From the NCBI RefSeq assembly GCF_003096415.1, contig NZ_QEKH01000019.1, positions 1 to 64,000 of the forward strand: DNA of 64,000 nucleotides. Direction: 5' to 3'. Both the position numbers and the translations under genes were made by a program. A model generated the notes under the pieces. The model made no database searches. It had not been told where the DNA came from and saw only the letters and a program-made list of their open reading frames with translations. The DNA is from Victivallis vadensis. Lineage in GTDB: Bacteria; Verrucomicrobiota; Lentisphaeria; Victivallales; Victivallaceae. Below, piece by piece: positions 5,883 to 29,866 of this stretch. Each line of letters opens with the position of its first letter. The first letter of the stretch is position 1.

Positions 5883-5896
5883 GATTACCTCTTTCC

Positions 5897-6917: not shown

Positions 6918-6936
6918 GATAAACACTCCTTTCGGA

Positions 6937-7476: not shown

Positions 7477-7893
7477 ATGAAAATGCAAATGATCAGAACA
7501 GGAGCATCTCTTGCCGACAAGTTCCATGGACTTGTCAAGCTGCTGCAAATGCCGTTTACTCAGGACGGGTTTGAACCGCTGTACCCATTGTTGAAATCCA
7601 GGACGATGGCCGGTTTTCTGGCGACCTATGCCACCATGTGCCGGGCATGGGCGGTCAACACCGGCATCGACGCTTCTTCGGGACTCGGCTATGTGCAGTG
7701 GATCATCATGGCCATCGGCCTGATCTTTACGCTGATCATGGGGATTTCGACCGGATTCGCATTCAAGAATGATGCGGCAAACGCGAAAGCGCAGCTGATC
7801 GGGACGATCCTGATTCCGGTGCTGTTCGCGATTGTGCTGTACATTTTCAACAAAACGCTCGGCATTTCGCTGAATGCTTCCAGCGGACTGTGA
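7477..7893 (+). CDS. VirB2/TrbC-like pilin-type membrane protein
   Basis: 138 aa from ATG 7477, preceded by GGAAAGGA. Two hydrophobic segments at residues 72-92 and 107-127 separated by a short polar loop (FKNDAANAKAQ) match the topology of VirB2/TrbC pilins. It is first in the operon and directly precedes VirB3- and VirB4-like genes, the standard order. The 60-residue N-terminal part is longer than a usual pilin leader and has no obvious cleavage site. In other systems VirB2 builds the conjugative pilus. The assignment rests on topology and position. Confidence 0.6.
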   Translation: MKMQMIRTGASLADKFHGLVKLLQMPFTQDGFEPLYPLLKSRTMAGFLATYATMCRAWAVNTGIDASSGLGYVQWIIMAIGLIFTLIMGISTGFAFKNDAANAKAQLIGTILIPVLFAIVLYIFNKTLGISLNASSGL

Positions 7894-7900
7894 GGCTGAT

Positions 7901-8242
7901 ATGACGGAAGAAGTACCTCTTGCCATTCCCCGGAATCCGGCTCAGATACCGGCATCGCAGTTCCGTCTGTCGCGGAACCTGAAAGTGCGCGGCGATGCGA
8001 TCTACATCATTTTCGGCGGCATCATCGGAGCGGTTTTCCTGTTTTTCGCCCTGATGGATGCCTCGGTGATACTGGCCGTCGCCGTATCATGGATTCCGCT
8101 GGCGGCGTCCGTCTGGTTCTATTTCCGGTTCGTTCGGGAGAAGCCGCGCTACTATTTCGACTACTGGCTCAACAGCCTCTTCGGAACGGCTCTGCGGCTT
8201 GACACCCGAAAGACAATCCGCTTGAAAGCGAGGGTAAAATGA
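7901..8242 (+). CDS. VirB3/TrbD-like inner-membrane protein
   Basis: 113 aa, starting at ATG 7901 after GAGG. An N-terminal polar segment with the VirB3-like FRLSRNLKVRGD is followed by two transmembrane segments (residues 33-52 and 55-76) and a basic tail with RFVREKPRYYFDYWL, typical of VirB3/TraL. Its stop overlaps the VirB4 start (ATGA). VirB3 proteins anchor the VirB4 ATPase at the membrane and are sometimes fused to it. Assignment is by topology, order and coupling. Confidence 0.7.
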   Translation: MTEEVPLAIPRNPAQIPASQFRLSRNLKVRGDAIYIIFGGIIGAVFLFFALMDASVILAVAVSWIPLAASVWFYFRFVREKPRYYFDYWLNSLFGTALRLDTRKTIRLKARVK

Positions 8243-11202
8243 TCCGTTATCCCAATGGTTATATCATTGAAACCGATCCGCCGGAAAATGCGTTCTTCGT
8301 CTATGGCGAACTGAATGCGACGGGATATGTCGTCAAAGGGTTCCGGCTGGATGTCCCGAATCTCTCCAATGCCGGCTGGCCGCAGAAGAATGAGCTGTAT
8401 ACGCACCTGCAATCGTATCTGTCGCGGTTCGACGCTTCAAAACGGCTTCAGTTCCGCTACACCAAGGACTCGAATTACCGGAAGATTCTGGAAAAATACG
8501 AATCCGATACGGAACGTTTGGCGAGTGTGCCGTTCTGTCGTGAGTTCAGAAAGCAGACCGCCGCCGAGCTTCGGCGTCAGATGGAGGCTCATGAACTCTG
8601 GCGGGAACATTTGACTGTTTACATTTCGCGTCCGGCAAAGGATTTCATTTCCGGAGCACTGAATGTGGAGTCGGAACAGGCAATGCAACTGTTCCGGGAA
8701 CGGGTTTCCTCCTGTTTCGAGTCAGAATATCTGCTTTTGAAAAGCGCATTCAGTTTTCCGATCCACAGACTCACGGCAGTTGAACTGTTCGCCGAGTTCT
8801 TCGGAGCGGTAAACAAGTCGCTTGCGGCGGAAGAGGTTGATTACAGGGAGATTTTCAGTCCGGATTTCAGCGATGTTTACCGGAATGAGTTCAGCGGTCA
8901 GGATCATGCGGAGCAGGACCGGGAACGGGAGACTGCTTCCGAGCGGCATTACGGGATGTACGGAGACGGAATGTATCACAACATTCTGGTCATGCGGCAG
9001 CTTCCGGGCTTCGACCTGACGCCGTTTTACGGCAATGTCCTGCTGGAGACAAACGTGACGAATTTTTCGGTCACGGTCAATCTGCGTCCGCTGAACAAGG
9101 CCAAGACCATCGAGAAACTGGAATCGCGCCAGGCTTCGGCGCAGCGTGATCTGGAAGCCGATCCCTCGGCGATTGCCTACCGTTCCGAAGTCGATGCGTT
9201 CGGAAAAATGATTTACCGGATGGGAGCGGGAGAAGATGTGCCGTTTGAGGCGGAATATCTGATCCATGTCTGGAACCGGAATCTGGAAGAACTTCAGCAG
9301 GAGACGGAGCAGCTCCGGCTGGTGGCGACCAATCTGCAATGCGGCATGATGATGCACGATCTGACGGTTCAGGTGGAAGCGCAGTTTCTGAAAACGCTTC
9401 CCGGCAATCTCTACTACAAAAAATGGGACCCGCTGTTTACGCTGCACCGGTCCTTTGCGGCGATGATTCCGTTCAATTCGACGTTCGTCGGCTGCGAGGA
9501 CGATTTTCAGGCGATTTTTCAGGGCGATCACCATAACCTTGTTTGTGTCAACGGATTTTACGGCGGTTCTCCACAGCACGCCGCCACGTTCGGACAGACA
9601 GGTTCCGGGAAATCGGTCAATACGCTCGGAGAACTGCTGCAAACATATCCGTTTTACAGCAAGGTGGTGATCATTGAGGAAGGGGCATCCTACCTGATGT
9701 TCACCCGGATCGTCGGCGGAGAGTATATCGAAATTGACCTCAACAGCAATCTGACGCTGAATTATTTCGACACCTGCGGTTCTCCGCTCACTGCCAATCA
9801 GACGGATTTTGCGACGAATTTCGCAACGGTGATGTGCGGCCAGTCGCAGAACGATGAAATCATTCAGGACCGGGCGGCGATCTTGTCACATTATGTGATC
9901 CGTCTTTATGATGCTTCGTGGCAGGAGTGGTGGAACCACCATACGGAACTGCGGAGCGAAATCGCCCGGATTGCCCTGACGATGGAGTGGATGCTTCCGC
10001 AGCAGCCTGCGGGAAGCAATACGCAGTTCGACTGTTATGCGGCATTGAAGGAAGCGCTCGCCAAATCACCGGAGAGTCTCACTGTTCCCGAACAGCAGAT
10101 TCTGAACTATTATCATGGTATTCCAAGTGGAAAAATCACGGAATGTATCGTGGAGAATGGTTCTCTGCTCCGGGACATTTCCTACGCCTATATGAGACCG
10201 GAGGATATGCCGTATCACTCTCAGCTGGTGGAAATGATCCGCTCGACGCCCGATCCGACGCATCGCCGGGAGGATACCAACCGGATTGCCACACGGTTGG
10301 CGCAGTATGCGGTGGAGTCCGGACGCGGCGCTCTTTTTGACGGCGTGACCAACATCAATCTCGGAGCGCGGCTGCTGCATTTTGAAATCGGCAAGATGGC
10401 AAACGTATCGCAGAACATCCGGGCGATGGTAGGGATGGTGATCAGCAACCTTGCACAGCAGCAGATCATCAATATGCCGCGCAAGCTGCTGAAGCTCTTT
10501 CTGTATGAGGAGATGCCGCGAATCATCGCCTCTGTTCCAGGAGCGAGCGGCTTTGTGAAACGTTCCTACGCTCAGCTGCGCAAGAGCAACTGCCGGAGCT
10601 GGACGATCACACAGGAGGCCGGTCAGCTCATGGTGCAGGACAAGGAAGGTTCCGATCTGGCGACCATCATCATGGGGCAGAGCAAGCAGTATTATCTTCT
10701 GAAGAACAAGGACAAGGGGAATATGGAGTTTTTCCGGCGCTTCATCGCATTGTCCGACGATGCGGTCAATGCCGTGATGAACTTTCCCGCGCCGGAACAT
10801 ATTCCCGGTCGAAAGTATTCTTCGTACCTCTACTACATCGACAACGGGGAATATCCGTTGGTGGGTGTGGTCCGGCACTATGCCGATCCGCTGACGATTG
10901 CAGTTGCCTCGACCAGCGGAGAAGCGTTTTCCAAGCGGGAAGAGGAATTACGGCGGCTCCGGATTCTTTATCCGGGACTGGATGAGGGACAGCTTCTCAT
11001 CGAATATGAGAACCGGCAGCGGATCAGCAATCCTGCCCTGAAACTGCTGCGGGAAATGCTGAACAGCAGGGATTTTTCCCGCCTGAATGTTCTGCACGAA
11101 GAACTGATCCGGCTGAGTCTGCAAAATGCGGGATTCCGTCCACCGGAAATTCCCGAACGAATCCGACATGAACTCGAAAACTTCAACTCAAACAAGGAGT
11201 AA
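8239..11202 (+). CDS. VirB4/TraC-family conjugation ATPase
   Basis: 987 aa. The N-terminal half matches the CagE/TrbE/VirB region. The C-terminal ATPase domain has Walker A GQTGSGKS at about residues 452-459 and Walker B LFLYEE near 752. The hallmark SQNDEIIQDRAAILSHYV and the late motif TITQEAGQLM also fit. VirB4 powers pilus assembly and substrate transfer at the cytoplasmic face. This is somewhat longer than the classical 800-870 aa. It is coupled to virB3 by a 4-base overlap and is the most secure marker that this is a type IV secretion operon. Confidence 0.92.
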   Translation: MIRYPNGYIIETDPPENAFFVYGELNATGYVVKGFRLDVPNLSNAGWPQKNELYTHLQSYLSRFDASKRLQFRYTKDSNYRKILEKYESDTERLASVPFCREFRKQTAAELRRQMEAHELWREHLTVYISRPAKDFISGALNVESEQAMQLFRERVSSCFESEYLLLKSAFSFPIHRLTAVELFAEFFGAVNKSLAAEEVDYREIFSPDFSDVYRNEFSGQDHAEQDRERETASERHYGMYGDGMYHNILVMRQLPGFDLTPFYGNVLLETNVTNFSVTVNLRPLNKAKTIEKLESRQASAQRDLEADPSAIAYRSEVDAFGKMIYRMGAGEDVPFEAEYLIHVWNRNLEELQQETEQLRLVATNLQCGMMMHDLTVQVEAQFLKTLPGNLYYKKWDPLFTLHRSFAAMIPFNSTFVGCEDDFQAIFQGDHHNLVCVNGFYGGSPQHAATFGQTGSGKSVNTLGELLQTYPFYSKVVIIEEGASYLMFTRIVGGEYIEIDLNSNLTLNYFDTCGSPLTANQTDFATNFATVMCGQSQNDEIIQDRAAILSHYVIRLYDASWQEWWNHHTELRSEIARIALTMEWMLPQQPAGSNTQFDCYAALKEALAKSPESLTVPEQQILNYYHGIPSGKITECIVENGSLLRDISYAYMRPEDMPYHSQLVEMIRSTPDPTHRREDTNRIATRLAQYAVESGRGALFDGVTNINLGARLLHFEIGKMANVSQNIRAMVGMVISNLAQQQIINMPRKLLKLFLYEEMPRIIASVPGASGFVKRSYAQLRKSNCRSWTITQEAGQLMVQDKEGSDLATIIMGQSKQYYLLKNKDKGNMEFFRRFIALSDDAVNAVMNFPAPEHIPGRKYSSYLYYIDNGEYPLVGVVRHYADPLTIAVASTSGEAFSKREEELRRLRILYPGLDEGQLLIEYENRQRISNPALKLLREMLNSRDFSRLNVLHEELIRLSLQNAGFRPPEIPERIRHELENFNSNKE

Positions 11203-11207
11203 AACAC

Positions 11208-14200
11208 ATGAAACGACAAAATTTGAAATCCACACTCAAAACACTGCTGGCGGGATTCTGCATCGCTTCCGGCGGGCTGGCATTCGCCGGCAGCGTCACG
11301 GTTTCCGGTACGGCGGGAACCAATCCCACCTACATCGTCATTCCGGAGGAGTATGCCGGAAAAGAGGGACAGTTTGTAGCGACGGCGACTTCGAGCAATT
11401 CCAGCCCGGTGACGATTGAAGAACCTTATATCAATCAGGATTATGCGTATGTGAAGAAAAGCTGGAAAAGCTATGGAGCATTCAATTTTACGCTTGGAAT
11501 CCCCTCCGGAACATTCTACGTCGGGGGAAGCAAGTCATTGAGTTCGCTGGAAAAGGGAAGCTATATTGTGAGAGTATCCCAGGATGTGACCGCACACAGC
11601 GTCACCTACGCATTGTATCGCAGTAACTGGGCTGACACGGAAGCCCAGACTTTTTCCGATCTGAAATACTATGCACAGAACGGTACTTTGCCCCCTTCTT
11701 CAGGTATTACCCGTGCTCCTACGTATGACGGAGGAGATAATAAAGCAAGTACAACGACAACAGGCGTGACGATCGCCTCCGCCTATATTGTCGTTTACGG
11801 AGTCGATGACGGAGGTTCCGGCGGAGAGGTTACGCCTCCCGTGACCGGCGGCGATTCTTCCCGCGGCAGCAATATCGACATCAACATCACAACCGGTACG
11901 GATGACGGCGTTTATACCCTGATCAACTCGCTCTTTTCCTACATTTCGGAAATGCAGTCGATTCTTTCGGCTTCCGACGATGCGATCCGCAGTGAGCTCG
12001 CGTCTTACATCACCGAACTCCAGACGGCATATCAGGCGGCCGATGCCCAACTGGCAACAACGATTCAGAATCAGATCAATGCGCTGCAGGCGGCAATGTC
12101 AACCAGTGTGTCGGATCTGCGGACTTCGCTGGAAAATCAGATTGCCGCATTGCGGAATCAGATGGGATCATTGCAAACACAGCAGTCCAATCTGCTTTCC
12201 GAGTTCCAGACGTTGAAAGGAGAACTGCAGACGGCGATTGCGCAGAATTCCGGCAATATCGCGGCATTGTCCAAAGAGTTGGCGGAAAAGTATGAAGCTC
12301 TGGTTGCGGCGAATTCGAACCTGAAAGCCGATCTGCTGGCGGAAATTGCCGAAGTCACCAGCGGTTACAAGGAGGCGGATTCCGCATTGATCGCGGATTA
12401 TTCCTCGAAACTCGCCTCCTTGCAGACTTTGCTTCAGCAGGCGGATTCCGCATTGGCCGACAATATCGCGGCATTGCAGAATGCCTATCAGAATGCGGAT
12501 GCGACCCTGCGGGAGAATCTGGAGCAGCAGCTTGCCGCCTTGCGTAACGAAATGAGCGCGGAAGATCAGAAAACGCTGGACCGCATCACAGCTTTGCAGC
12601 AGGAGATGAACAGTGCGGACAACGCCTTGCGCACCGACTATGAAAATAAGATTGCCTTACTGGAAAAAGAGCTCTCCACGGAAGCGTCTGCAATCCGGAC
12701 GGAGATGAACAATCTCCAGATCAGATATGAGACCGAGCTTGCGAATGCGAAATCGTCATTGGAGGAACAGATGGCGACCATGCAGACCCGCCTTGAGGCT
12801 GCGGATCAGCAGACTCTGAGTCAGATTTCCGCACTGGAACGGGAAATGAACAATGCCGATGAAGCTCTGCGCGCCGATTATGAAAACAAAATCTCCGCAT
12901 TGGAAAAGGAACTCTCTACGGAAGCATCCGCGATCCGCAAGGAGATGTCCACGCTTCAGACGCAGTATGATACAGCTTTAGCCAATGCGAAATCGTCATT
13001 GGAGGAGCAGATGGCGACCATGCAGGCGAATCTGACTGCGGCGGACCGGGAAACGCTGAACAAGCTTTCCTCGCTGGAAACATCCATGAACAACGCGCTT
13101 GATCTGCAGCGGCAGGATTATGAGAACCGGATCAATTCCCTGAATCAGACGCTGACTGCGGAAGCAGCGGCTCTGCGAACCGAGATGGCGAATCTCTCCA
13201 ATGCCTATCAGACGGAAATCTCCTACCTCAAGGAAAATCTGGAACAGCAGATTGCCTATCTCAAGGAAACGACGCAGAAAACAACCGATGATCTGCAAAA
13301 GCAGATCGACTCCCTGACGGAAAATTACGACCGCCAGATTACAGAGTTGAAGGCCGATTACGATGCCCGGCTTGCTGCCCTGGAGCAGAAATCCGATGAT
13401 GCGGATGCGGAGTTGAAAGCCGCTATGGAGGCGTATGTGGAAGCGTTGCGCGAGCAGATGACTGTCGCAGACGAGGAAACGCGCGCCCGGCTGCAGGCGC
13501 AGCTGGATAATCTCTCCGGGGCATTCAATGAGCGGCTGGAAGTGATTTTGCAGGAATACGAACAGCGGATTGAAAAGGTCAAAGGTCAGATTGAGGATCT
13601 GGAAAGCGACACGAAAACGGAGCTGATCACGCAGAAAGCGTTGCTGGAACAGGAATGCAGAAATAAGATTGCCAATCTCAACAGGAGTTATGCGGATAAA
13701 ATCGCTGAACTTCAGAAGAAGCTGTCCGGCGATCCGGAAAATGCCGATCTCTATTATGCCCAAATTGCGGCATTGGAGAAGGAACTGACCTCCAAAATCT
13801 CCGAAACGAATCTTTCCTATCAGAAATTGATTCTGGAAATCGACCGTCAGCTTCGCCAGCTTTCGGACAAGAGCGCGACCGAGCTTCTGGCGGAACTGAT
13901 GGAACTGCAGAACAAGCGCGACATCGTGGAGGCTGCGATCAACAGTTCCGATTATTCGGACAAACTCGCCGCATTGGATGCGGGAACCCGGCAGAATGCC
14001 GACGATGCCCATGCGGAACTGGAGGCGAAACTCGCGGAATTGGAAAAACAGCTGGAGGCGCTGAAAGCGGTCGGTGAGCTGTCGATTGACGACATCATCG
14101 CAAAAATTCAGGCGGGAGACGCAGCCAATACTGCAGAGATCGAAAATCTCAAAGTGGTCCTGAAACTTTATTGCGACTCCTTGAAGGATGCGCTCGGCGA

Positions 14201-14939
14201 TCGGATCGCGATTCTGGAGGAGACGATTTCCGCTTTGCAGACTGCGCTTCAGGAGCGGATGCAGACTTTGGAGAACCGTCTGACCTACTCCATGATGACG
14301 GATGAGGAACTGGCGAAGCTGGAGGAGGAAAAACAGGCCGCGGTCAATTCGCTTGCCAATCAGATTGCCGGAGTTCAGCTTGCCGTTGAACAGGCGAGGA
14401 AAGAGGATAAAGACACCTCCGCATTGGAGGAACAGCTTTCCGCGCTGGCCTCCGAATACTATGCGGCGCAGAACGATCTTGAAAACATCCGCTACGTGAT
14501 GGAACTGCGCTCCACTTCGGAACTGGCTCTGCACCGCAAATGGATCAAGGAGCTGCAGGAACTGGTGGCGGCATTGCAGAACACCGTTGTCAAACAGGGC
14601 GAAACCATCGCGCAGCAGGGGGAAGCGATCAACGGTCTCAAGGAGACGATTGTGAATCTGGAAAAGGCGTTGCGCGATGAACTTGCGAATCTGAAAGATG
14701 AACTCAAAGAGTATGTGGACGGCAATGTCGGCGAATTGAATGCGGAGATTGCCGATCTCCTCGGCCAGGTCGAAACACTGCGCGACAATGTCGTTACGCT
14801 GGCGACCAGTTCCTATTCCGGCTATCACTCCTCGTCCACCGGGAACGGGTATCAGTACAACTATTCCGGCACGAACAAGGATGAAATCAAAGACGACCGT
14901 GATCTCCGTACCAGCGACACCACGGCTCTGGACTTTTAA
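11208..14939 (+). CDS. Giant secreted coiled-coil protein of the conjugation operon
   Basis: 1243 aa. A Sec signal peptide (residues 1-27, ending GGLAFAGS) is followed by a beta-rich domain of about 170 residues, a Gly/Ser/Thr linker (about 200-230), and near-continuous heptad coiled coil from about 235 to 1190. The tail after residue 1195 is rich in Tyr, Ser and Asp. Tandem 80-residue repeats lie at 12579-12818 and 12819-13058, with a third diverged copy following. No known T4SS component has this form. As a continuous helix the rod would be roughly 140 nm long. A surface fibre, adhesin or mating-pair stabiliser is possible (inference). The ATG follows AAGGAG. Confidence 0.75.
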   Translation: MKRQNLKSTLKTLLAGFCIASGGLAFAGSVTVSGTAGTNPTYIVIPEEYAGKEGQFVATATSSNSSPVTIEEPYINQDYAYVKKSWKSYGAFNFTLGIPSGTFYVGGSKSLSSLEKGSYIVRVSQDVTAHSVTYALYRSNWADTEAQTFSDLKYYAQNGTLPPSSGITRAPTYDGGDNKASTTTTGVTIASAYIVVYGVDDGGSGGEVTPPVTGGDSSRGSNIDINITTGTDDGVYTLINSLFSYISEMQSILSASDDAIRSELASYITELQTAYQAADAQLATTIQNQINALQAAMSTSVSDLRTSLENQIAALRNQMGSLQTQQSNLLSEFQTLKGELQTAIAQNSGNIAALSKELAEKYEALVAANSNLKADLLAEIAEVTSGYKEADSALIADYSSKLASLQTLLQQADSALADNIAALQNAYQNADATLRENLEQQLAALRNEMSAEDQKTLDRITALQQEMNSADNALRTDYENKIALLEKELSTEASAIRTEMNNLQIRYETELANAKSSLEEQMATMQTRLEAADQQTLSQISALEREMNNADEALRADYENKISALEKELSTEASAIRKEMSTLQTQYDTALANAKSSLEEQMATMQANLTAADRETLNKLSSLETSMNNALDLQRQDYENRINSLNQTLTAEAAALRTEMANLSNAYQTEISYLKENLEQQIAYLKETTQKTTDDLQKQIDSLTENYDRQITELKADYDARLAALEQKSDDADAELKAAMEAYVEALREQMTVADEETRARLQAQLDNLSGAFNERLEVILQEYEQRIEKVKGQIEDLESDTKTELITQKALLEQECRNKIANLNRSYADKIAELQKKLSGDPENADLYYAQIAALEKELTSKISETNLSYQKLILEIDRQLRQLSDKSATELLAELMELQNKRDIVEAAINSSDYSDKLAALDAGTRQNADDAHAELEAKLAELEKQLEALKAVGELSIDDIIAKIQAGDAANTAEIENLKVVLKLYCDSLKDALGDRIAILEETISALQTALQERMQTLENRLTYSMMTDEELAKLEEEKQAAVNSLANQIAGVQLAVEQARKEDKDTSALEEQLSALASEYYAAQNDLENIRYVMELRSTSELALHRKWIKELQELVAALQNTVVKQGETIAQQGEAINGLKETIVNLEKALRDELANLKDELKEYVDGNVGELNAEIADLLGQVETLRDNVVTLATSSYSGYHSSSTGNGYQYNYSGTNKDEIKDDRDLRTSDTTALDF

Positions 14940-14964
14940 CTCAATAAATATCAGGAGAACTGCA

Positions 14965-15423
14965 ATGAAACTGCATGGAAGAATCCTTACCGCCGTTCTT
15001 GCCACTGGAATCGTCGTTGGAGCGACCGGATGCAGCACGGTGGGCAATATGGCGACCTCGGAACTGGTGGCGCCGGGACTTGCCATCGGCGGAGCCAGTC
15101 TCGGCGCGTTCGCGGCAAAAGACGAGTCCGACGGCACACGCCTTGCCGCAACTGCCGGAGGCGGACTGATCGGCTGGCTGGCCGGGCTTTTCATCACAAA
15201 GGGCGTCGATCAGGAGAAGAAAGACGAGTTCCGCACCGGTTATGAGCTTGGGCAGTCCAATGCGACCAAATCGCTCTACTGGAATATCCAGGGACTGCAT
15301 GAAGCGAAAAATCAGCCGGATTCGCAGGTGATCTACTATCAGATCCCTGCCGACTATCCGGCGGACGGAGCAAACCGGACGCCCGGTTCCGTCATGCTTC
15401 CGGTCGTTACGGATCGGAGGTGA
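14965..15423 (+). CDS. Lipoprotein with glycine-zipper-like segment
   Basis: 152 aa from ATG 14965 after CAGGAG. A lipoprotein signal peptide ends VGATGC, with Cys at about residue 23. Residues 35-70 are glycine- and alanine-rich (LAIGGASLGAFAAKD, then GGGLIGWLAGLF), like glycine-zipper outer-membrane lipoproteins. The remainder is polar. It lies between the coiled-coil protein and a small module protein. It could anchor the coiled-coil fibre or serve as a second VirB7-like lipoprotein (inference). Confidence 0.7.
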   Translation: MKLHGRILTAVLATGIVVGATGCSTVGNMATSELVAPGLAIGGASLGAFAAKDESDGTRLAATAGGGLIGWLAGLFITKGVDQEKKDEFRTGYELGQSNATKSLYWNIQGLHEAKNQPDSQVIYYQIPADYPADGANRTPGSVMLPVVTDRR

Positions 15424-15425
15424 AT

Positions 15426-15830
15426 ATGAGCAGGAAAAAGCGACCTCAAGTGCAACAGGAACAAACCAGACAAAAGCAGGAATCCCATGAGCAAAAAGAA
15501 GAAAAGGAAGACACTCAAGCCCAGGTACAAATCCCGTCGAATGCGCCGGCGACAACCCGGCAGCGGGAACTGCTCCGGCTTGCCGTACAGCGGGAATGGC
15601 TATATCCGAATCCCTTTGCCTGCGATCATGCGAAGTGGAAAAATCTTACAGCCGGTGAGGCGGATCAACTTCTTGCCTCACTCCCGCGGGAACGGCTCGG
15701 CATCCTCGAACGGGAACTGAATGAAGAGCAGCGCAGGAGGGCCGACCACGGCATTGCCCGTGCCATCGGGCGCGGGCTTGAAGATGTCATAAGACAAATC
15801 GGGCATTCGATTGACGGAGGTATTTCATGA
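15426..15830 (+). CDS. Small protein with the shared W-x-x-LT module
   Basis: 134 aa. ATG 15426 is preferred over GTG 15420 because GGAGG lies five bases before it. The first 37 residues are Gln/Glu/Lys-rich and disordered. Residues 39-88 form a module (ATTRQRELLRLAVQREWL, then AKWKNLTAGEADQLLASLP) that recurs in three other proteins of this operon. The module resembles DUF3072 by eye, in its spacing of an early Q, a Leu-rich helix and a late LT..eA segment. The C-terminus is basic and helical. Probably a cytoplasmic accessory protein; function unknown. Confidence 0.65.
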   Translation: MSRKKRPQVQQEQTRQKQESHEQKEEKEDTQAQVQIPSNAPATTRQRELLRLAVQREWLYPNPFACDHAKWKNLTAGEADQLLASLPRERLGILERELNEEQRRRADHGIARAIGRGLEDVIRQIGHSIDGGIS

Positions 15831-17856: not shown

Positions 17857-17863
17857 GAGAGCT

Positions 17864-20600: not shown

Positions 20601-20602
20601 CC

Positions 20603-21910: not shown

Positions 21911-21911
21911 A

Positions 21912-22517
21912 ATGAAACAGAACATGATCGCACTTCTCGCCGGACTCTCCGCTGCCGCTCTGGTCGGCTGCCAGTCGAAACCGGAAACGCCCGAACCGAA
22001 GGAATACACCTCCGTGCCGCTCTATATGGCGGGACAGGAAATTCCCGGAGATTCGCAGGAAAAGTATTTGACCAACGCCTCAGTCAAAATGTATTCGGTC
22101 GGCCGTCTGGTCGATCCCGGTTCCGGCACCATGCGCGAAGCCGGAACGGTCTACCGGATTGAAACTGCGCCGAAGTGGAATCTGATTCCGCAGCATGACG
22201 CCAATCCGGAGAGTTTCGCCAGACGGAAATTGCAGGAACAGTATGCGGATTCAATGCTCGGTCAGATGAACCGTTCGCTTTCCGAAACGCGGGAGGTCAA
22301 ACATGGGCTTGATACGGTTCAGAGGAATATGTCGGAAATCGACCGCAGGCATCAGGCATTGGCAGAGGAAAACCTTCTGCTGAAAAAAGAACTCAAAAAG
22401 CAGAATGAAAACACGGTCAGTCTGCTGAACGGAATCAAGAAAATGCAGAAATACATCGAATTGCTGGAACAGCGTCTCAACGACCGCAATACCATGAACT
22501 TCGGAGGACAGAAATGA
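21912..22517 (+). CDS. VirB7/TraV-like lipoprotein
   Basis: 201 aa with a lipoprotein signal (lipobox ALVGC, Cys about residue 20), a Pro-rich start, a central polar domain and a coiled-coil C-terminus (residues 120-190). It directly follows virB10 (one base between) and is the expected outer-membrane lipoprotein of the core complex. Classical VirB7 is much shorter; TraV-type lipoproteins are closer in size. Confidence 0.6.
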   Translation: MKQNMIALLAGLSAAALVGCQSKPETPEPKEYTSVPLYMAGQEIPGDSQEKYLTNASVKMYSVGRLVDPGSGTMREAGTVYRIETAPKWNLIPQHDANPESFARRKLQEQYADSMLGQMNRSLSETREVKHGLDTVQRNMSEIDRRHQALAEENLLLKKELKKQNENTVSLLNGIKKMQKYIELLEQRLNDRNTMNFGGQK

Positions 22518-22804
22518 AACAGCGGATTGCTTTTGCCCTGATCGTAATCGCCTTTGCCATGAGCGGAGCATTGCATTACAGGGAATACCGGAAGTCTCAG
22601 GAAATTTCCGACATACTTCGTATTCAGGCGGAAATCGAGTTCAAGCGCACTTCCCTGATGGTCGTTTATCAGGAGGTGCTGCAAAGCGTGGTAAAAGAAC
22701 TCGACGCGATGAAACATGGCAGAATCGAAGCGGAAAGTCAGGAGCTTTCCAGGCTGCTTGATGCTCTCCCGGATGAAATCGAACTTCAGGAGGCGCAACC
22801 ATGA
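22514..22804 (+). CDS. Small bitopic membrane protein
   Basis: 96 aa with one N-terminal transmembrane segment (residues 5-20) and a charged helical remainder, no family recognised. It overlaps both neighbours by four bases (ATGA junctions), which places it within the conjugation operon between the lipoprotein and the ParA-like ATPase. Confidence 0.6.
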   Translation: MKQRIAFALIVIAFAMSGALHYREYRKSQEISDILRIQAEIEFKRTSLMVVYQEVLQSVVKELDAMKHGRIEAESQELSRLLDALPDEIELQEAQP

Positions 22805-23649
22805 GACGGATGCTGATCTTTATTGCCGGGACCAAGGGAGGCGTGGGAAAATCCTTTGCCTCCGCGATGCTGGCGGGGGCGGCTGAGGATCTCGGACTCT
22901 CTCTGACCGTTTATGATACGGACAATGAGAACCGGACGCTCACCACGCTGATGAAAGAGCATTGCAGATTTCTGGATGAACAGAAAGAAACTTATCCTCT
23001 GGATGAGGTCATCAACAGCCTTTATGAATCATCGCCCGTGACCGTCACCATTGTGGACATGAAAGCCGGAACCAGCCGTTCGACGCAGGAATGGTTCTCG
23101 TCGGTTCCGTGGGATGCCCTGCGGAAAATTGATGTGGATGTTTACGTGGCAGGCTGCGTAACTTCCGATCCGGATTCCGTCAGGACGTTTGGGCCGTGGC
23201 TGGAGTATTTCCATAACATTGATTTTCCGGTGCATTATCTGCTCATCAAAAACGCGAAGGACGGAGACAACTTTTTTGTCTGCGACTCCCTGCTGGAACC
23301 GGGAATGCGGGAAATGGAATTGGATTACAGCGTCTTTTTCATATCGCCGATTGAGCAGGAATACATCGGCAAGCTCAATAACAATGACATTCTTCTGCGG
23401 GATTATCTGCATGGCAAAGGACCGAAAACACTTCTGCCGACCATCATGCAGAAATCGCGCCTGCGGAACCATTATTACGCAATCACCGATCAGTTCATTG
23501 AGTTTTTCGTTTCCGGGATGGAGGCAAATGAACGGAATGAATCCCGTCAGAAAATTCTGACATCCGTACAAAAACGGATTGCGCTCCGCTCGGGAGTACA
23601 ACCCGATGAGCTCGAAAAAGAAGAAACAGCAAAATCGAAAGGGAATTGA
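22801..23649 (+). CDS. ParA/MinD-like P-loop ATPase
   Basis: 282 aa. The deviant Walker A GTKGGVGKS is at residues 9-17 and the switch-like TIVDMKAGTSRS near residue 80, followed by Walker B-like hydrophobic strands. ParA-like proteins accompany many conjugation systems (VirC1, TraL of IncP) and may position the relaxosome or the T4SS at the pole; others partition DNA. No ParB-like partner is visible, which favours a conjugation role (inference). Confidence 0.75.
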   Translation: MRRMLIFIAGTKGGVGKSFASAMLAGAAEDLGLSLTVYDTDNENRTLTTLMKEHCRFLDEQKETYPLDEVINSLYESSPVTVTIVDMKAGTSRSTQEWFSSVPWDALRKIDVDVYVAGCVTSDPDSVRTFGPWLEYFHNIDFPVHYLLIKNAKDGDNFFVCDSLLEPGMREMELDYSVFFISPIEQEYIGKLNNNDILLRDYLHGKGPKTLLPTIMQKSRLRNHYYAITDQFIEFFVSGMEANERNESRQKILTSVQKRIALRSGVQPDELEKEETAKSKGN

Positions 23650-23651
23650 AG

Positions 23652-24170
23652 ATGGCAAGAATGAAACCGCAAATGACGCCGGAACAGCAGACCGCCTATC
23701 GTCAGGCGGTCGCGCAGAAAGTGATCGACTCGATTCCGTATGAAAAGTATTGCGCGATCACGCCGGAACAGGCTGCAAAACAGATCAAGGCGTGGGAGAA
23801 ATCCAAAGCTGTCGATTTCAATCAGCCCCTGTCGAATCGCCGCAACGCTCCGGCGCCGGAACGGGCGGCTCCGGCGAAAGCTCCGGAAGCTCCTGCCGGA
23901 GACGGATTGCGCACCCGCCACCAGCTCAACGAGTTTGTCCGGCTGGTCAAAGACGGGCGGCTGAATCCGATTTCCCGCGACAAATGGGCGACGATTTCCT
24001 CCAAAGAAATGGGCAAACTCATTTACATCGGGCAGCAGCGCGAGAAAAACGGCGAGCTTGCTCCGGCACGGGATCAGCAGGATCAGGGGAAAGAACCGGA
24101 AAAGCAGGCGAAGGCTCCCCGGAACAGAGCGCCGCGTCCCCGTTCACGCGGCAATGATCTGGATATGTGA
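23652..24170 (+). CDS. Protein with two copies of the shared W-x-x-LT module
   Basis: 172 aa; ATG 23652 preferred over TTG 23646. Residues 7-51 (MTPEQQTAYRQAVAQKVIDS, then EKYCAITPEQAAKQI) and 83-130 (RTRHQLNEFVRLVKDGRLNP, then DKWATISSKEMGKLI) are two versions of the module seen at 15426, 25063 and 27595. A Pro/Ala/Glu linker lies between and a basic tail follows (RNRAPRPRSRG), suggestive of nucleic-acid contact. Function unknown. Confidence 0.65.
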   Translation: MARMKPQMTPEQQTAYRQAVAQKVIDSIPYEKYCAITPEQAAKQIKAWEKSKAVDFNQPLSNRRNAPAPERAAPAKAPEAPAGDGLRTRHQLNEFVRLVKDGRLNPISRDKWATISSKEMGKLIYIGQQREKNGELAPARDQQDQGKEPEKQAKAPRNRAPRPRSRGNDLDM

Positions 24171-24194
24171 GGCCGATGAAAGGAGAGATGCAGT

Positions 24195-25046
24195 ATGGCG
24201 GAACCGTTCAATTTTGAATTGACCCTTACGGATTTTCTGAAATATATGCCGGAAGCGAAACGGCACGATTACGAGCTGATGCTCCGGCGCTGCAATTTCA
24301 GCGATCCCGCCGATCCGATGTTTCCCGTCATGCTGTTTCTTCTGTTTTTTCAGGATAATCTCGCCGACCGGATGGAGGAGTTGACGGAAGAAGTGAAAGC
24401 GCAGAAAACGCTTCCTTCGACGGATCACGCTGCCGTTGCGCCGGAACGGAAATTCTGCTGGAAAATTGTAATTGCGGTTCTGATGGCAGTTCAACTGATG
24501 TTGACCGTTTTCAGCATTTTCTGCCTGACATTCCGGGATTTTCCAAGTCAACCAATCATGAATCCCGCCATTTCGCATTCCAGCGAGATTCAGAAGATCA
24601 ACCGTTATTGGGATGCAAAACTGCAATATGCACAGAAAGGAAATTTTTGTATGAACCGGCTTGATCTGATTCCAGAAACGGAACTCATGGGGGCTGTTTT
24701 GCTGATTCTCATTTCTTTCCTGGGGCTGATGGCGCTTCAAATCATCTGGCTTGTTCTGACCGTTCGCGGTCTGCGCAACAGCGAGAAACGGTTGGATGAA
24801 GCGACCGGACGGCTGCATCGCAACCTCACGCAGCAGAAGAAAACGGAGGAACTCATGGCATTCCTGAACGGCCCGACGCCTCCAATTCCGCCGAATACGC
24901 CGCTTCCCGACCTCACGCTTCCGGCTTCCGCTCCGAAGCAACCTCCCGTTGCCGATGATGCGGCATGGAACGAGAAAGAAGCGGAAGAAGCACCTGTCCC
25001 GGAATCCTCGGAACAGAGCGAATCGGCAGAAGGGAAAACCTCATGA
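24195..25046 (+). CDS. Unknown two-span membrane protein of the conjugation operon
   Basis: 283 aa. The first 100 residues are cytoplasmic and acidic, with a hydrophobic patch MFPVMLFLLFFQDNLADRM. Membrane spans lie at about 95-117 and 160-190, and the C-terminus (from 215) is Pro/Glu-rich and disordered. AAGGAG precedes the ATG. No family recognised; its place next to the module proteins and before VirD4 suggests a role at the cytoplasmic gate. Confidence 0.55.
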   Translation: MAEPFNFELTLTDFLKYMPEAKRHDYELMLRRCNFSDPADPMFPVMLFLLFFQDNLADRMEELTEEVKAQKTLPSTDHAAVAPERKFCWKIVIAVLMAVQLMLTVFSIFCLTFRDFPSQPIMNPAISHSSEIQKINRYWDAKLQYAQKGNFCMNRLDLIPETELMGAVLLILISFLGLMALQIIWLVLTVRGLRNSEKRLDEATGRLHRNLTQQKKTEELMAFLNGPTPPIPPNTPLPDLTLPASAPKQPPVADDAAWNEKEAEEAPVPESSEQSESAEGKTS

Positions 25047-25062
25047 GGAAAGGAGCTGAAGA

Positions 25063-27579
25063 ATGTCCATCATGACCGAAGATCAGGTGAAACTCCTGCA
25101 CAAATTACAGATGGCGGAAATCCCCGCATTCAAAAACATCAATCCGCTGACTCTTCAGGAGGACGAGGCGCGCGATCTGTTCCGCATGAATCTGCCGCCT
25201 CTGGAGTGGATCAATGCGGCAGCGCAAAATGAAAAACATGAACTCGTCGAAAAGCGTTTTATCGGCGTTTCCGAAAACAACTGCCGCGAGCAGATGAAGG
25301 ATTGGCTGGAAAAAGAGAATCTGACTTTGCTTCAGCAGCCGAATCCGCAGTTCGGCGCGGGGGAAGCATGGCTGGAATATTTTTCCCAGCCGCTCAAGTC
25401 CGTCAATCTGAAGGCCTTGAACGATCATTTTGAACGCTGGGAAATTCCGATTCCCAGGATTCCGGTTCCGAAGGATCAGCAGGAGGTGCTCCGGCATAAG
25501 GCGCCGGTTCCTGCGCAGGAGATTTATGCCCGTCTGGATGCCGAAGAACTCGGCCAGGAGTTACAGAAATTGCGCAGCGGCAGAAGCGCTTCCGAAGGGA
25601 TTCAATTCGGATTCGCCCCCGGTGATGTCGGAACCTTCGAGGAAGACACCACGTTCCATACGTTTCTTTCGCCCCTGAGTGCTCCGTCCGCCAAGGAGTG
25701 GGAACGGCTTGCCGGCAGTCTCCCGGTGGAAGAACTGGTCGGACAGGTGCAGGTCGATACCGTTTTGTCGGATGTGGAATGCAAGCCCTATTATGCACTC
25801 CTGTCGCCGGAGGAGTTGCAGACGGAAATCGAATATTTTCAGGCAAACGGCGAGTTCCGAAACGGGATTGAAATCGGTTATGCTTCAGGCGGCAAGACGA
25901 AGGCGGAAAAATCCGTTGAGCCGCTCGTCACGGAACTTTCCGATGAGGAGCTGGATCAGTTGGAAGCCGGAACGTTTGCGGATTGGAACAAACTGCGCGG
26001 GCAGAAGCTGCTCGGCTTTTCCAAGGCGCAGGAGATACCGGTATTCCGGCGAATGAGTCCGGAAGAACTGCAGAAGGAGCTCGAATTATTTGCGGAAAGC
26101 GGCAAATTTTCCAGTCCGGATATTTCTGTCGGGCATGTTCCGGAACGGGAAACGTATAAGAAAGAGTTTCATCGTCCGCTGGTTCCGCTGTCCGAAAAAG
26201 AACTGACCGATCTTGCTGCGGGCAAAACGATCCGCAATCAGGACATCCTGCTTGCGCAGAAACTGGTCTGCCGGACGCCGCAGATCCCCGGAACTGCGGT
26301 CTATGAAAAGAAATTTTCCGCTCTGGAATTGGCCTTCGATGACTGTCCGCAGAAGCGTCTTGAAATCTACGCTCAATACCGTAAGGAACAGGACGAACGG
26401 GCGTTGAATAAGGTCACACCGGAACTGCGGGCACAGATCAAGGCGCTGCAGGAATCCGGCAAAGGACCGAAAATCGACCGGGAGAACTATCTTGCCTTTA
26501 CGCGCAAAGACGCGGAAACATACATCCAAGAGCATGAGCAGAATCCAGAGAACACCTTTACGCCGACCGTATATCCCAAACGGGCGGTTCCGAAGAATGA
26601 AGCGTTTCCGCAGTTCAAGAAATCCAATCTGTTCTCCCAGCCTCAAGCCGATTACCTGCAGCGTTCCATTCTCCGCGATCTCGCGGCGGAAGGGCATATT
26701 GCTTCTCCTGAAACCGTGGGGGAGTTTCTGGGGAAGCTGGAATTCATAACCGATGCGCAGGCAAAGGAGTTGATCAAACCGCATCTTGGCAAATCCGCGG
26801 GAACCGGTCTCCTGAACCAATGTCGCGCCTACATGGAAAGCGGGAAGATTTTCAATGAAAAAGAGATCAAAACCATCGCCGATGTGCAGCGGCTTTATCA
26901 GGTGAATCGCGGAATGGATTTTGACAAGAAGGCGGCGCTGAAAGATCTGATCGAAGGCGGTTACATCCAGTCTAACGATGCTCTGGCAAAAATCAAATTC
27001 ACCACCGAGTTACAGGATGACGCCCTGATCGCCAAATACAGCGACGCCAGAATCGGCAGGAATCTGCGCGCCCGGATCAACGACTTGATCGACGAAGCAA
27101 AAATCGGGCAGATTGCGGATGAGGATTTTCAGCAGATGAGCATTTCCAAAGGAATGCAGATTATTGCCGCCAATGCGGAACTCGAATGTTCCAAGCATCC
27201 GATGGCGACGCAGGGACAGATTGCTCTGTTGCAGAAAATGGAACAGCGCGGTCAGATTGACCTGCATAAAATCGACCTGACCAGGTTGCGCTTCCGGACC
27301 GCCGACCAGTGGATCAAGCAGAACATCAACAATCCCGCGCGGAATACGCACAATCCCGATGCTCCGGCGACCACAAAACAGAGAGGTCTTTTAACGCTGC
27401 TGGTCAGAGAAAAGCTGATCAAAAACATTCCGTACTCGGAGTGGCGGGATATGACGGTCGATCAGGCATCGAAGCGAATCTCCTCCGTTCCGCCCCGGCT
27501 TTTACAGCAGGCGATAGAAAGGCAAAATGCTCCACAGCGAAATATTTCGCCTCGCCAGAGAACCTCAATGGAACGGTGA
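25063..27579 (+). CDS. 838-aa repeat protein of the conjugation operon
   Basis: No signal peptide, membrane span or relaxase motif is visible. Residues about 158-415 hold three tandem repeats of about 84 residues, each opening with a form of SPEELQxEL and containing a later LSxxELxxL. The C-terminal third is helical; residues about 712-755 (ATQGQIALLQKMEQRGQIDL) and 765-812 (ATTKQRGLLTLLVREKLIKN, then SEWRDMTVDQASKRI) carry the shared module, and residues 4-40 look like a third copy. It may be the main scaffold of a cytoplasmic complex or a substrate-handling protein (inference). AAGGAG precedes the ATG. Confidence 0.65.
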   Translation: MSIMTEDQVKLLHKLQMAEIPAFKNINPLTLQEDEARDLFRMNLPPLEWINAAAQNEKHELVEKRFIGVSENNCREQMKDWLEKENLTLLQQPNPQFGAGEAWLEYFSQPLKSVNLKALNDHFERWEIPIPRIPVPKDQQEVLRHKAPVPAQEIYARLDAEELGQELQKLRSGRSASEGIQFGFAPGDVGTFEEDTTFHTFLSPLSAPSAKEWERLAGSLPVEELVGQVQVDTVLSDVECKPYYALLSPEELQTEIEYFQANGEFRNGIEIGYASGGKTKAEKSVEPLVTELSDEELDQLEAGTFADWNKLRGQKLLGFSKAQEIPVFRRMSPEELQKELELFAESGKFSSPDISVGHVPERETYKKEFHRPLVPLSEKELTDLAAGKTIRNQDILLAQKLVCRTPQIPGTAVYEKKFSALELAFDDCPQKRLEIYAQYRKEQDERALNKVTPELRAQIKALQESGKGPKIDRENYLAFTRKDAETYIQEHEQNPENTFTPTVYPKRAVPKNEAFPQFKKSNLFSQPQADYLQRSILRDLAAEGHIASPETVGEFLGKLEFITDAQAKELIKPHLGKSAGTGLLNQCRAYMESGKIFNEKEIKTIADVQRLYQVNRGMDFDKKAALKDLIEGGYIQSNDALAKIKFTTELQDDALIAKYSDARIGRNLRARINDLIDEAKIGQIADEDFQQMSISKGMQIIAANAELECSKHPMATQGQIALLQKMEQRGQIDLHKIDLTRLRFRTADQWIKQNINNPARNTHNPDAPATTKQRGLLTLLVREKLIKNIPYSEWRDMTVDQASKRISSVPPRLLQQAIERQNAPQRNISPRQRTSMER

Positions 27580-27594
27580 ATTGGAGAAAACAGT

Positions 27595-27849
27595 ATGAAG
27601 ATGAGTCCGATGCAGAAGTATGCGATGCGCCTTTTGATCGCGAGCGGACAGGTGCGGCTTCCAGATCGCAATGCCTGGACACAGTTGACCTCGGAAACGG
27701 CGGCGGAACAGTTGCGACGGTTCGGCGGAGTTCAGACCATTCTCAGGAATACTGTTTTGCCGCAACGGAGCTCATCCGCAGGGGAATCGCGGCTTCCCGT
27801 CTCGAAATCCATTCCGTTTTCTCCGAAAAAATCTGAACTTGAACGCTGA
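27595..27849 (+). CDS. 84-aa protein with one shared W-x-x-LT module
   Basis: Residues 3-43 (MSPMQKYAMRLLIASGQVRL, then NAWTQLTSETAAEQLRRF) repeat the module; the rest is Ser/Arg-rich and probably disordered. GGAGA precedes the ATG. It lies 14 bases before the VirD4-like gene and may be an adaptor to the coupling protein (inference). Confidence 0.6.
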   Translation: MKMSPMQKYAMRLLIASGQVRLPDRNAWTQLTSETAAEQLRRFGGVQTILRNTVLPQRSSSAGESRLPVSKSIPFSPKKSELER

Positions 27850-27863
27850 AAAGGATCTCCGGC

Positions 27864-29825
27864 ATGGCTATGAAAAAAAGCATTCTTGATGAAATCATCT
27901 TAAATATCGAAGGCAATCCGTGGACGGTTCGCGACGCCTGTACCGGCTGCATCGTGTTCGGCATGACCGGTTCCGGTAAAAGTTCCGGGCCGCTTTACAA
28001 GATCGCACATAAATTTCTGACGCTCGGTTACGGCGGCGTGGTGTTCTGCGCCAAACCGGATGAAGCCGATACCTGGAAGAAATATGCCGCGAAAGCCCAT
28101 CTGGACGATGATCCGCGCAAGCCGAACCGGACCGGGGATCTGCTCTTTTTGAGTCAGCTGACCTTCAACTATCTCGACAGTGAGGCGAAACGTGCCGGAC
28201 GCGGCGGCGGGCAGGTCGAAAACCTCGTCAATCTCTATTTGGAAATCGTCAATATGGGCAAGGACAAGCGCAATTCCGGCGGCGGCAACGAGGAGTATTG
28301 GAATAATGCCGTCAAGCAGTTGTTGCGCAACTCCATCACGATTCTGCAAATGGCACAACAGCCGATCAACATTGAAAACATTCATGAAATCATTGTTTCT
28401 GCGCCCTCTGCCTCTTCTGAAACAGTAGAAGAAAGAGGTTACTGTTCCAATTTATTGGATGTGGTTATTCCAAGAGAATTTTGCGATACGCCGGAATATC
28501 AGATTGCCCACACCTTTTTCTATGAGGAATTCGCTTATCTTGACGAACGGACCCGCTCCAACACGATTTCCTCCTTTTCCGTCGCCGCAGACTCCATGCA
28601 ACGAGGTGAACTGGCACGCTGTTTTTCCGCCGAGCAATCGACGCTTCAACTGGAAGACCTCTATCGCAAGGGGAAAATCCTGATTGTCGATTATGATGTC
28701 AAATCCTGGGGCCGGATCGGGCAATATGCCGCCGGCATCATCAAATACTGCTTTGAGTCCATGATCGAGCGTCGGGAAGACATTGCCGATGACAATGCCC
28801 CGCCTGTCTTTTTATGGGCGGATGAATGCCAGTTCTTCAGTCTTGAATACGATCAGAAGTTTCAGACTACCGCCCGTTCCAGCCGGACACTGACCATGTA
28901 TGCCACTCAAAATCTCGGCAACCTTTATGATGGTTACGGCAAGGAAAAAGCCTCCTCGCTTCTCGGCAATCTTGGCACAAAAATTTTTTGCCAGAACGGC
29001 GAATTCGAGACGAACGAATGGGCTTCCAAGTCCATCGGGCAGGAGATCATCATCCGTCAGTCCAAGACCTACGGCGATTCCAAATCATCATCGATGAAAG
29101 GCGATGACAACAAGTCGTTGTCCTATTCCGAAGGGTATAACGAACAGAAGGACTACCGTGTCGATCCTGCTGATTTTTCCACGCTCCAGACCGGCGGACC
29201 GCGCGGTCAATGCAAAGTCGGATTCATTTTCTGGCAGTCGGGACGGATTCTGAACAACGGCAATGTATTTGTCCGTTCCACCATCGAGCAGGAATGCCGC
29301 CGTGTCTGCGGAGCCAAAATCGTGCGGCATTGTCCGAAAGTTCCGACCATCGGCAAAGGCGAATACATCGGAGAATATCGGATTTTGCTGCCGAATGATT
29401 ATTTCTGCTTCATCGCATTTCTGCTGTCGCTGGCGTTTCCTCTGACTGGATTTTTTCTCGTGCTTACGAACCGGGATATTCTCATCGGCTATTTCAATGA
29501 CGTTTTCTATTGTTGCGTCAGCACGCTCTGTTTTTACATGTGGAGCGTGGTTCTGGATATTTTCTGCGCCTGCCTGAACCGGATTCCGGCAATTCTCAAG
29601 GCTCTGTTTTCCGGCAGACCTCGCAGGGAGCAGAAGTATCTGAAAGCCGTCATCTGGCAGGATGCGGTTCTCGGCTACTACGCGATCTGCGTCGGCATGA
29701 CGCTCTGGTTTCAATATCATCTTTTCGATTTCAAGCAGCTTGGAATTGTACTGGCATGGTGGACGGGACTCTGCATGTTCTTCCGCTTCCTGCGCTCTTC
29801 CGGCAAACAACCAATCAAACCATAG
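27864..29825 (+). CDS. VirD4/TraG-like coupling ATPase with C-terminal membrane segments
   Basis: 653 aa. Walker A GMTGSGKSS is at residues 33-41 and Walker B VFLWADE at about 315-321, followed by TTARSSRTLTMYATQNL, the coupling-protein sensor region. VirD4 proteins bring relaxase-bound DNA to the channel. Here the nucleotide-binding domain starts at the N-terminus, and three to four hydrophobic segments lie at residues about 510-640, whereas classical VirD4 has its membrane helices first. The gene ends the intact operon; the next gene is cut after eight codons. AAGGA precedes the ATG. Confidence 0.85.
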   Translation: MAMKKSILDEIILNIEGNPWTVRDACTGCIVFGMTGSGKSSGPLYKIAHKFLTLGYGGVVFCAKPDEADTWKKYAAKAHLDDDPRKPNRTGDLLFLSQLTFNYLDSEAKRAGRGGGQVENLVNLYLEIVNMGKDKRNSGGGNEEYWNNAVKQLLRNSITILQMAQQPINIENIHEIIVSAPSASSETVEERGYCSNLLDVVIPREFCDTPEYQIAHTFFYEEFAYLDERTRSNTISSFSVAADSMQRGELARCFSAEQSTLQLEDLYRKGKILIVDYDVKSWGRIGQYAAGIIKYCFESMIERREDIADDNAPPVFLWADECQFFSLEYDQKFQTTARSSRTLTMYATQNLGNLYDGYGKEKASSLLGNLGTKIFCQNGEFETNEWASKSIGQEIIIRQSKTYGDSKSSSMKGDDNKSLSYSEGYNEQKDYRVDPADFSTLQTGGPRGQCKVGFIFWQSGRILNNGNVFVRSTIEQECRRVCGAKIVRHCPKVPTIGKGEYIGEYRILLPNDYFCFIAFLLSLAFPLTGFFLVLTNRDILIGYFNDVFYCCVSTLCFYMWSVVLDIFCACLNRIPAILKALFSGRPRREQKYLKAVIWQDAVLGYYAICVGMTLWFQYHLFDFKQLGIVLAWWTGLCMFFRFLRSSGKQPIKP

Positions 29826-29836: not shown

Positions 29837-29866
29837 ATGTTCAAATCCACAAAAGAACCTTAACAT
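29837..29866 (+). pseudogene. First eight codons of a lost operon gene, at a deletion junction
   Basis: After GAGG, ATG 29837 opens MFKSTKEP and then stops at 29861-29863. A full ribosome site before eight codons suggests the start of a real gene whose remainder was deleted. The other side of the junction is the truncated 3' end of a serine recombinase on the opposite strand. Confidence 0.5.

Follow-up and report, generated by a model that had tools for sequence, protein, structure and literature searches.

The first 64,000 nucleotides of contig NZ_QEKH01000019.1 of Victivallis vadensis (Lentisphaeria, Victivallales; assembly GCF_003096415.1), hereafter termed the window, carry at positions 7477-29825 an operon for a type IV secretion system (T4SS). 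With about even confidence, we interpret the window as containing a right-truncated integrative element from clade A of a Lentisphaerota-restricted, conjugation-type T4SS, for which the relaxase would be supplied in trans by dispersed MOBF units. The system is likely a conjugation T4SS borne on an integrative element. Its parts are an inner-membrane VirB3/4/6/8 set, a VirB9/10/lipoprotein set, an exported giant coiled-coil protein, and a VirD4 coupling protein with a predicted C-terminal anchor; intact copies additionally carry a stand-alone ClpB-D2-like AAA+ ATPase. The family is phylum-restricted and resides on integrative elements, and it is new as a variant, not as a kind.

A T4SS family of Lentisphaerota and its mobility

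A preliminary description, made from the letters of the window alone, had proposed a distinct conjugation family in its phylum, and database searches agree with it. When about 85,000 named species genomes were scanned with a VirB4 alignment, eight loci were returned, every one in a metagenome-assembled genome of Lentisphaeria/Victivallales. No related loci were found in viral contigs, and plasmid searches gave just distant VirD4 matches with less than 36% identity. Pfam, NCBIfam, PHROGs and PDB yielded no described T4SS class closely matching the entire operon; such a match would have told against a separate family. The same gene order was recovered from other Lentisphaerota genomes of clades A and B, including a complete clade-B copy in genome G009.

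Based on VirB4 and VirD4 searches, clade A comprises the window and copies in G046, G364, G320, G398, G014 and G410. Clade B includes G009, a second element of the window's own genome (G000), G425, G409, G302, and a remnant in G006; its VirB4 is 42% identical to that of the window. In the distant clade C (G049, G226, G235), VirB4 is 28-30% identical and the core order is kept. Between two taxonomic families, long blocks of clade-A DNA are 92-94% identical; since such copies exist in another family and the clade-B proteins, 40-50% identical to those of the window, follow in matching order, the operon is not a chance arrangement.

The complete clade-B element (G009:C29:700-32157; 31.5 kb) lies in a congener of the window organism. 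Contigs C15 and C55 of the window's genome hold pieces of it with 97-98% identity, the homology stopping sharply at both ends, and the right flank of the G009 element matches an uninserted G000 locus at about 79%. The ends were set by homology. The element ends in a tyrosine integrase; clade B as a whole carries tyrosine recombinases, and G425 adds an HTH_17 excisionase-like gene. An integrase, recognizable ends and flanks that differ between hosts identify clade B as integrative, and the sequence comparisons indicate that the elements are horizontally mobile. The copies in G409, G425 and G302 show this gene layout too, within the reach of their contigs.

Three further loci were observed in passing. 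G046:C61:3350-7848 (L054) is an internally deleted clade-A element, in which VirB2, VirB3 and 106 codons of VirB4 are followed by the end of the Q-module array gene (described below), VirD4 and the AAA+ gene. The clade-B remnant at G006:C1:3083875-3094500 (VirD4, Q-module array, ParA) is interrupted by repeated, near-identical open reading frames (ORFs) resembling insertion sequences. A small gene 3' of the clade-B VirD4 gene in the window's genome (L002:337-735; G000:C55) looks, by eye, like a Doc-type toxin.

A proposed separation of relaxase and channel

The preliminary description had noted that the window lacks a relaxase and VirB11, and Pfam searches of the operon proteins bear out both absences. 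The lack of a relaxase extends to the complete clade-B element, in which Pfam searches of the ORFs outside the T4SS and a search for the H-U-H motif in ORFs of at least 80 aa detected none; it does not extend to the genomes, which do carry MOBF relaxases on other contigs. The complete element B thus lacks the relaxase of its own that a self-transmissible integrative and conjugative element (ICE) would have, and in clade A the left ends are cut.

TrwC genes were found elsewhere in eight of the nine carrier genomes tested, whereas MobA/MobL was absent from 9/9 and PF03432 was present in just two. Across the order, TrwC occurs in 6/9 genomes with a clade-A or clade-B VirB4 vs 11/128 others (p 1e-4), and among genomes of at least 3.6 Mb in 6/7 vs 5/32 (p 9e-4); kinship is ignored in both comparisons, and the p values are indicative. 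The MOBF units are about 5 kb in length and comprise a TrwC-helicase gene and one or two small genes, with no VirD4 and no T4SS. Stand-alone units were located in Lentisphaerota chromosomes at G009:C32:15414-20709 and on G009:C22 (28509-33907 in a stretch whose first position is 5001), on contigs C32, C87, C35 and C73 of G046, and on C9 and C48 of G000. The two G009 copies are 94% identical and occupy different loci. The H-U-H, YY and Walker A motifs of the units are intact; the window's genome has two TrwC copies, truncated to 302 and 265 aa. On the 5' side of the units, a variable hairpin is followed by GGTATTGCGTTT, a layout that matches the R388 nic site (PMC4176350). A TrwC domain with H-U-H and paired tyrosines, a fused helicase, and an upstream hairpin as a putative nic site assign the units to MOBF. 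The TrwC protein of R388 is able to integrate DNA at nic-like sites (PMC3264647), and a similar ability would explain the dispersal of MOBF units without an integrase, the units being possibly self-integrating.

The coupling protein offers a second line of evidence. In clade-A and clade-B copies that include the relevant ends, VirD4 has its P-loop near the N-terminus and about three or more C-terminal hydrophobic segments; here, as throughout, transmembrane (TM) segments were assigned by hydropathy only. The protein is thus predicted to be anchored at its C-terminus and not at its N-terminus. This layout fits none of the published coupling-protein classes, which are those with an N-terminal TM domain, TM-less proteins with or without a partner, FtsK-like proteins, and archaeal proteins (PMC7431656). 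The closest VirD4 relatives outside the family are 35-39% identical, have no TM segment and adjoin a gene for a separate membrane protein; those examined (in G066, G187 and G010) lie next to a TrwC-type gene. Unlike the family described here, these mobilizable-type loci have no T4SS seen nearby, their membrane part is a separate downstream protein, and their relaxase is adjacent. In total, four such loci were noted in other members of the phylum (G066:C5, G187:C2, G190:C12 and G010:C23), each combining a TrwC-type relaxase with a separate membrane protein and a TM-less VirD4, and none with a T4SS seen nearby. In clade C, G049 carries TrwC and the T4SS on one contig.

In the proposed mechanism, the machine would move DNA between cells, and its relaxase-DNA substrate would originate from the dispersed MOBF (TrwC-like) relaxase-helicase units encoded elsewhere. 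The substrate would be recruited via VirD4, for which ParA and the Q-module array are putative adaptors, and the AAA+ protein may act on the substrate or in machine turnover.

A stand-alone AAA+ ATPase

The AAA+ protein consists of one AAA_2 module of about 300-350 aa, for which the nearest NCBIfam relative is the D2 part of ClpB (ClpB TIGR03346, 1.1e-46; ClpV, 4.8e-35). Its Walker, sensor and arginine motifs are invariant among the copies. The gene adjoins VirD4 or VirB2 in all clade-A and clade-B loci that reach this position, and stands beside VirB4 in clade C. When 137 genomes of the order were searched with a profile, 13 matches at 349-577 bits were obtained, all of which lie in clade-A or clade-B loci or at element ends as far as these were read (G409:C193 left out); in G141, a contig end holds the AAA+ gene together with an integrase and a small gene. 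Four further matches at 195-205 bits are frames of about 300 aa, three of them adjoining clade-C VirB4, and proteins of ClpA/B/C size score at most 171 bits. Because the high-scoring matches sit in clade-A and clade-B loci or element ends and the clade-C ones beside VirB4, the AAA+ protein probably belongs to the machine or to its substrate handling. The AAA+ tree is compatible with one origin of the A/B and C genes, its sole outgroup being two long Clp branches, so that it provides no real test.

No VirB11 match was found among the operon proteins or the element B ORFs scanned, and ten PF00437 matches above the cut-off in the window's genome all lie outside the operon. The preliminary description was thus right about this absence, which is not unusual, as F-type and Gram-positive T4SSs also lack VirB11 (PMC12857230). 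For this very reason, the idea that the AAA+ protein takes the place of VirB11 is only a guess.

Weighing the alternatives

The model in which relaxase and channel are encoded apart is the best supported. The co-occurrence of TrwC with the clade-A or clade-B VirB4, the intact motifs of the MOBF units and their nic-like hairpin speak for it, as do the TrwC neighbours of the nearest outside relatives of VirD4 and the G049 contig that carries both TrwC and the T4SS. Several observations weigh against it. Three of the nine genomes with a clade-A or clade-B VirB4 have no TrwC, all three carrying VirB4 fragments only, and the co-occurrence of TrwC with the T4SS may reflect genomes rich in mobile DNA; kinship also makes the genomes non-independent. 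Searches of the clade-A and clade-B T4SS elements for the hairpin/GGTATTGCGTTT motif gave scattered, mostly coding matches with no consistent hairpin form; since the motif was not found there, no evidence points to mobilisation of the T4SS element itself by the MOBF units. Every clade-A copy read has a cut or disturbed left end, where a relaxase gene of this clade could lie. Finally, for the left flank of the G009 insertion no match to the empty locus was obtained.

The main rival is that the element encodes its own, unrecognised relaxase, which we regard as possible and rather unlikely. The candidates are a catalytic-domain-only tyrosine recombinase of ~200 aa, convergent with VirD4 in clade B, and the Q-module array protein (838-984 aa). 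Tyrosine recombinase-like relaxases that are catalytic domains without DNA-binding domains do exist, namely MobK, TcpM and MpsA (PMC8152469). The complete element B is otherwise without a recognisable relaxase, and the small recombinase (Pfam Phage_integrase, 1.3e-9) adjoins VirD4 in G009, G000, G302 and G425, in elements that have a separate full-length integrase. It likewise consists of a catalytic domain beside transfer genes, with no CB/AB domain, but its catalytic residues are partly missing and no oriT is known for it: the tyrosine is kept, the first catalytic arginine is missing in both lineages, and the G009 protein also lacks the HxxR motif, whereas the described relaxases keep the set RK(H/Y)RH (PMC8152469). 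It does not, then, show the residues of a relaxase of this type, and none was seen in clade A. The Q-module array has neither a catalytic signature nor a fold match.

Two further readings appear improbable, to a closely similar degree. The T4SS could deliver proteins and not DNA, riding on an integrative element: protein export is a frequent function of T4SSs that have no linked relaxase, and the complete element B has none. This reading is opposed by a VirD4 that is closest to coupling proteins adjoining TrwC relaxases, by the horizontal transfer of the element itself, by the lack of any recognised effector-like gene, and by TrwC on the T4SS contig in clade C. Alternatively, these could be copies of a decayed ordinary ICE in which the relaxase was merely lost, as decay is visible in the truncated window copy, in the split element B and the two truncated TrwC genes of the window's genome, and in G046_C61, which is without most of the operon. 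However, a relaxase is also missing from the G009 copy, in which all T4SS genes are present, and G409, G425 and G302 share its layout up to the ends of their contigs.

Gene content of the operon

The operon consists of 20 co-directional ORFs on the forward strand, mostly abutting or overlapping and many with Shine-Dalgarno-like sequences, so that its bounds had been drawn correctly. VirB4, VirD4 and the VirB8/9/10 core (VirB8 by fold, VirB9 by a CagX match below cut-off) place it among the VirB/VirD4-type T4SSs. The earlier gene calls stand to differing degrees: VirB4, VirB10, ParA, VirD4 and, weakly, VirB9 were recognised by profile, and the second VirB8 by predicted fold, while the calls of VirB2, VirB3, VirB5, VirB6 and the first VirB8 follow from order, length, TM pattern and homology to relatives, with no profile match. 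The coding length without an assignment, described as about a third, amounts to 2854 of 7427 aa (38%). The PHROGs and PADLOC searches gave just weak or generic AAA+ and coiled-coil matches, and a phage or defence origin of the unassigned proteins was rejected.

The operon starts with a VirB2-like protein with two TM helices (7477-7893; position, topology and clade-A homologues) and a hydrophobic VirB3-like protein (7874-8242; position, topology and homologues). The VirB4 ATPase (8239-11202) matches Pfam P-loop_TraG (2.4e-8) and the NCBIfam models TIGR02746 TraC-F (1.8e-28) and TIGR00929 VirB4_CagE (1.3e-23); the best of these, TraC-F, is far under its curated cut-off, and a PDB search with alignment A1 found the VirB4-like 4ag5 (0.0012). 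The giant coiled-coil protein of 1243 aa (11208-14939), with coiled-coil Pfam matches and homologues, is predicted to be exported from its hydrophobic, signal-peptide-like N-terminus; relatives differ in length, and G009 has two copies. These features would fit a surface or envelope-spanning fibre. There follow a small lipoprotein (14965-15423; lipobox, homologues in clades A and B), a 136-aa protein with one Q module (15420-15830), a positionally assigned VirB5-like exported helical protein (15827-16720; hydrophobic N-terminus, 26% identical clade-C homologue), and a likewise positional VirB6-like polytopic membrane protein (16675-17856; five hydrophobic segments, homologues in clades A, B and C).

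The first VirB8-like protein (17864-18580) has one TM segment, and its pairing with the second is kept in clades A and B. For the second (VirB8b; 18577-19167), sequence profile searches gave no convincing match; its AlphaFold model (pLDDT 67) has the VirB8 fold, the best 25 VIA rows all being VirB8-family proteins with Z up to 13.9 (13.9 to an IcmL-like protein, 13.2 to VirB8). VirB9 (19164-20600; CagX 2.2e-4, below cut-off) has a long charged tail and a core kept in clades A, B and C, and is followed by VirB10 (20603-21910; TrbI 1.6e-9, clade-C homologue TrbI 1.7e-18), a lipoprotein in the VirB7 position (21912-22517; lipobox, homologues in A, B and C), and a 96-aa clade-A protein with a single TM segment (22514-22804; topology, homologues). 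The ParA-family ATPase (22801-23649; CbiA 1.6e-8) is in the same subfamily as the ParA proteins adjoining TrwC in clade C (hhalign 5.8e-20) and in G364. The small membrane proteins adjoining ParA were tested for homology across clades, and none was demonstrated.

The last part of the operon encodes a 174-aa protein with two Q modules (23646-24170), a 283-aa protein with two TM helices (24195-25046; topology), the 838-aa cytoplasmic Q-module array protein (25063-27579), for which the clade-B counterparts are about 950-980 aa long, an 84-aa protein with a single Q module (27595-27849), and VirD4 (27864-29825; TraG-D_C 8.4e-14, T4SS-DNA_transf 4e-9), with the P-loop at residue 33, C-terminal hydrophobic segments and no N-terminal TM segment. 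The ~45-aa Q module is common to the 838-aa protein and three small operon proteins, and a model built from the window modules also matches copies in G364, G320, G425, G302 and G006. The array protein has no match in Pfam, NCBIfam, PHROGs or PADLOC and none in PDB at E 0.001, and its structure model is poor (pLDDT 51).

The window copy and its surroundings

Position 1 of the window is the start of contig C19 (genome of 5.2 Mb in 87 contigs), and the left end of the element is therefore cut. On the right side, similarity to G046 (C46, C61) extends to 29857 and covers just seven codons of the next gene. In G046, G364, G320 and G410 the gene directly 3' of VirD4 encodes the AAA+ ATPase, of which the window retains the first seven codons (29837-29857, forward strand; comparison with G046_C46 and C61); no clade-A copy was found elsewhere in the window's genome. 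Beyond the T4SS, a serine recombinase fragment (29841-30740, reverse strand; Resolvase/Recombinase Pfam) has its 3' end joined to the AAA+ remnant, and the recombinase gene is itself cut at the 29857/29858 junction, which may represent either a true deletion or an assembly join. The gene set of the window is not that of the whole system, the copy being truncated and the conserved AAA+ ATPase lost at its right end. As its AAA+ gene is cut after seven codons, the window copy is probably not functional alone, and the genome's own set looks defunct, with the AAA+ lost, element B split and both relaxases truncated.

The AT-rich left part carries as cargo an AbiEi (DUF6088)/AbiEii toxin-antitoxin pair (1440-3088, forward strand; PADLOC AbiEi 3.7e-60 and AbiEii 6e-99, Pfam DUF6088 and AbiEii); its AbiEii is 68% identical to the product of a gene just 3' of VirD4 in the clade-C locus G049:C60. 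Element A also has two conserved genes near its left end (289 and 135 aa; 4777-6304, reverse strand), which are 71% and 48% identical to genes in the same place in G046_C61. A helix-turn-helix regulator (6507-6989, reverse strand; Pfam HTH_19/HTH_3 about 1e-7), divergent from the operon, is conserved in G046, and no conserved oriT-like block is visible in the alignment 5' of virB2. The high-GC chromosomal region at 31000-64000 encodes polysaccharide lyase 8, heparinase II/III, GH39-like and prepilin-like proteins.

Comparison with known systems and significance

Among described systems, the VirB/VirD4 type (R388 Trw, Agrobacterium VirB; MPF_T) shares the order VirB2-3-4-5-6-8-9-10, the TrbI-type VirB10 and the VirB8 fold, whereas the present family has no VirB11, and has two VirB8-like genes, a VirD4 with C-terminal membrane segments and an added AAA+ ATPase. 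The F-type (MPF_F) resembles it in the TraC-F profile as the best match of the window VirB4, a weak TraE match of the clade-C VirB8, the lack of VirB11 and the presence of MOBF relaxases in the same genomes, but the VirB4 match is far below cut-off, and the coiled-coil, Q-array, ParA and AAA+ parts are extra. None of TraF, TraH, TraN, TraU, TraW and TrbC was matched by Pfam in the 20 operon proteins, which are divergent. VirB4 and the clade-C VirB8 lean towards F-type TraC and TraE. With ClpB and the type VI secretion protein ClpV, the AAA+ protein has the D2-type domain in common; unlike them, it is a single module without other ClpB/ClpV domains.

More tentatively, and as a possibility that we judge well short of probable, the family may represent a T4SS lineage in which, in the absence of VirB11, a stand-alone ClpB-D2-type AAA+ protein is a permanent component, the C-terminus of the coupling protein serves as its anchor, and the relaxase resides on independently mobile MOBF units, so that mobile DNA of two kinds would share conjugation. 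Knowledge of gene transfer in Lentisphaerota seems scarce, and among the papers searched none pairs the phylum name with 'conjugative'. A complete T4SS copy with neither VirB11 nor a relaxase but with a Clp-type ATPase would alter the list of parts regarded as usual, and surveys based on relaxases would misclassify such a T4SS as non-conjugative. Relaxase units located apart from the channel would allow a direct test of whether two unlinked mobile elements can share conjugation.

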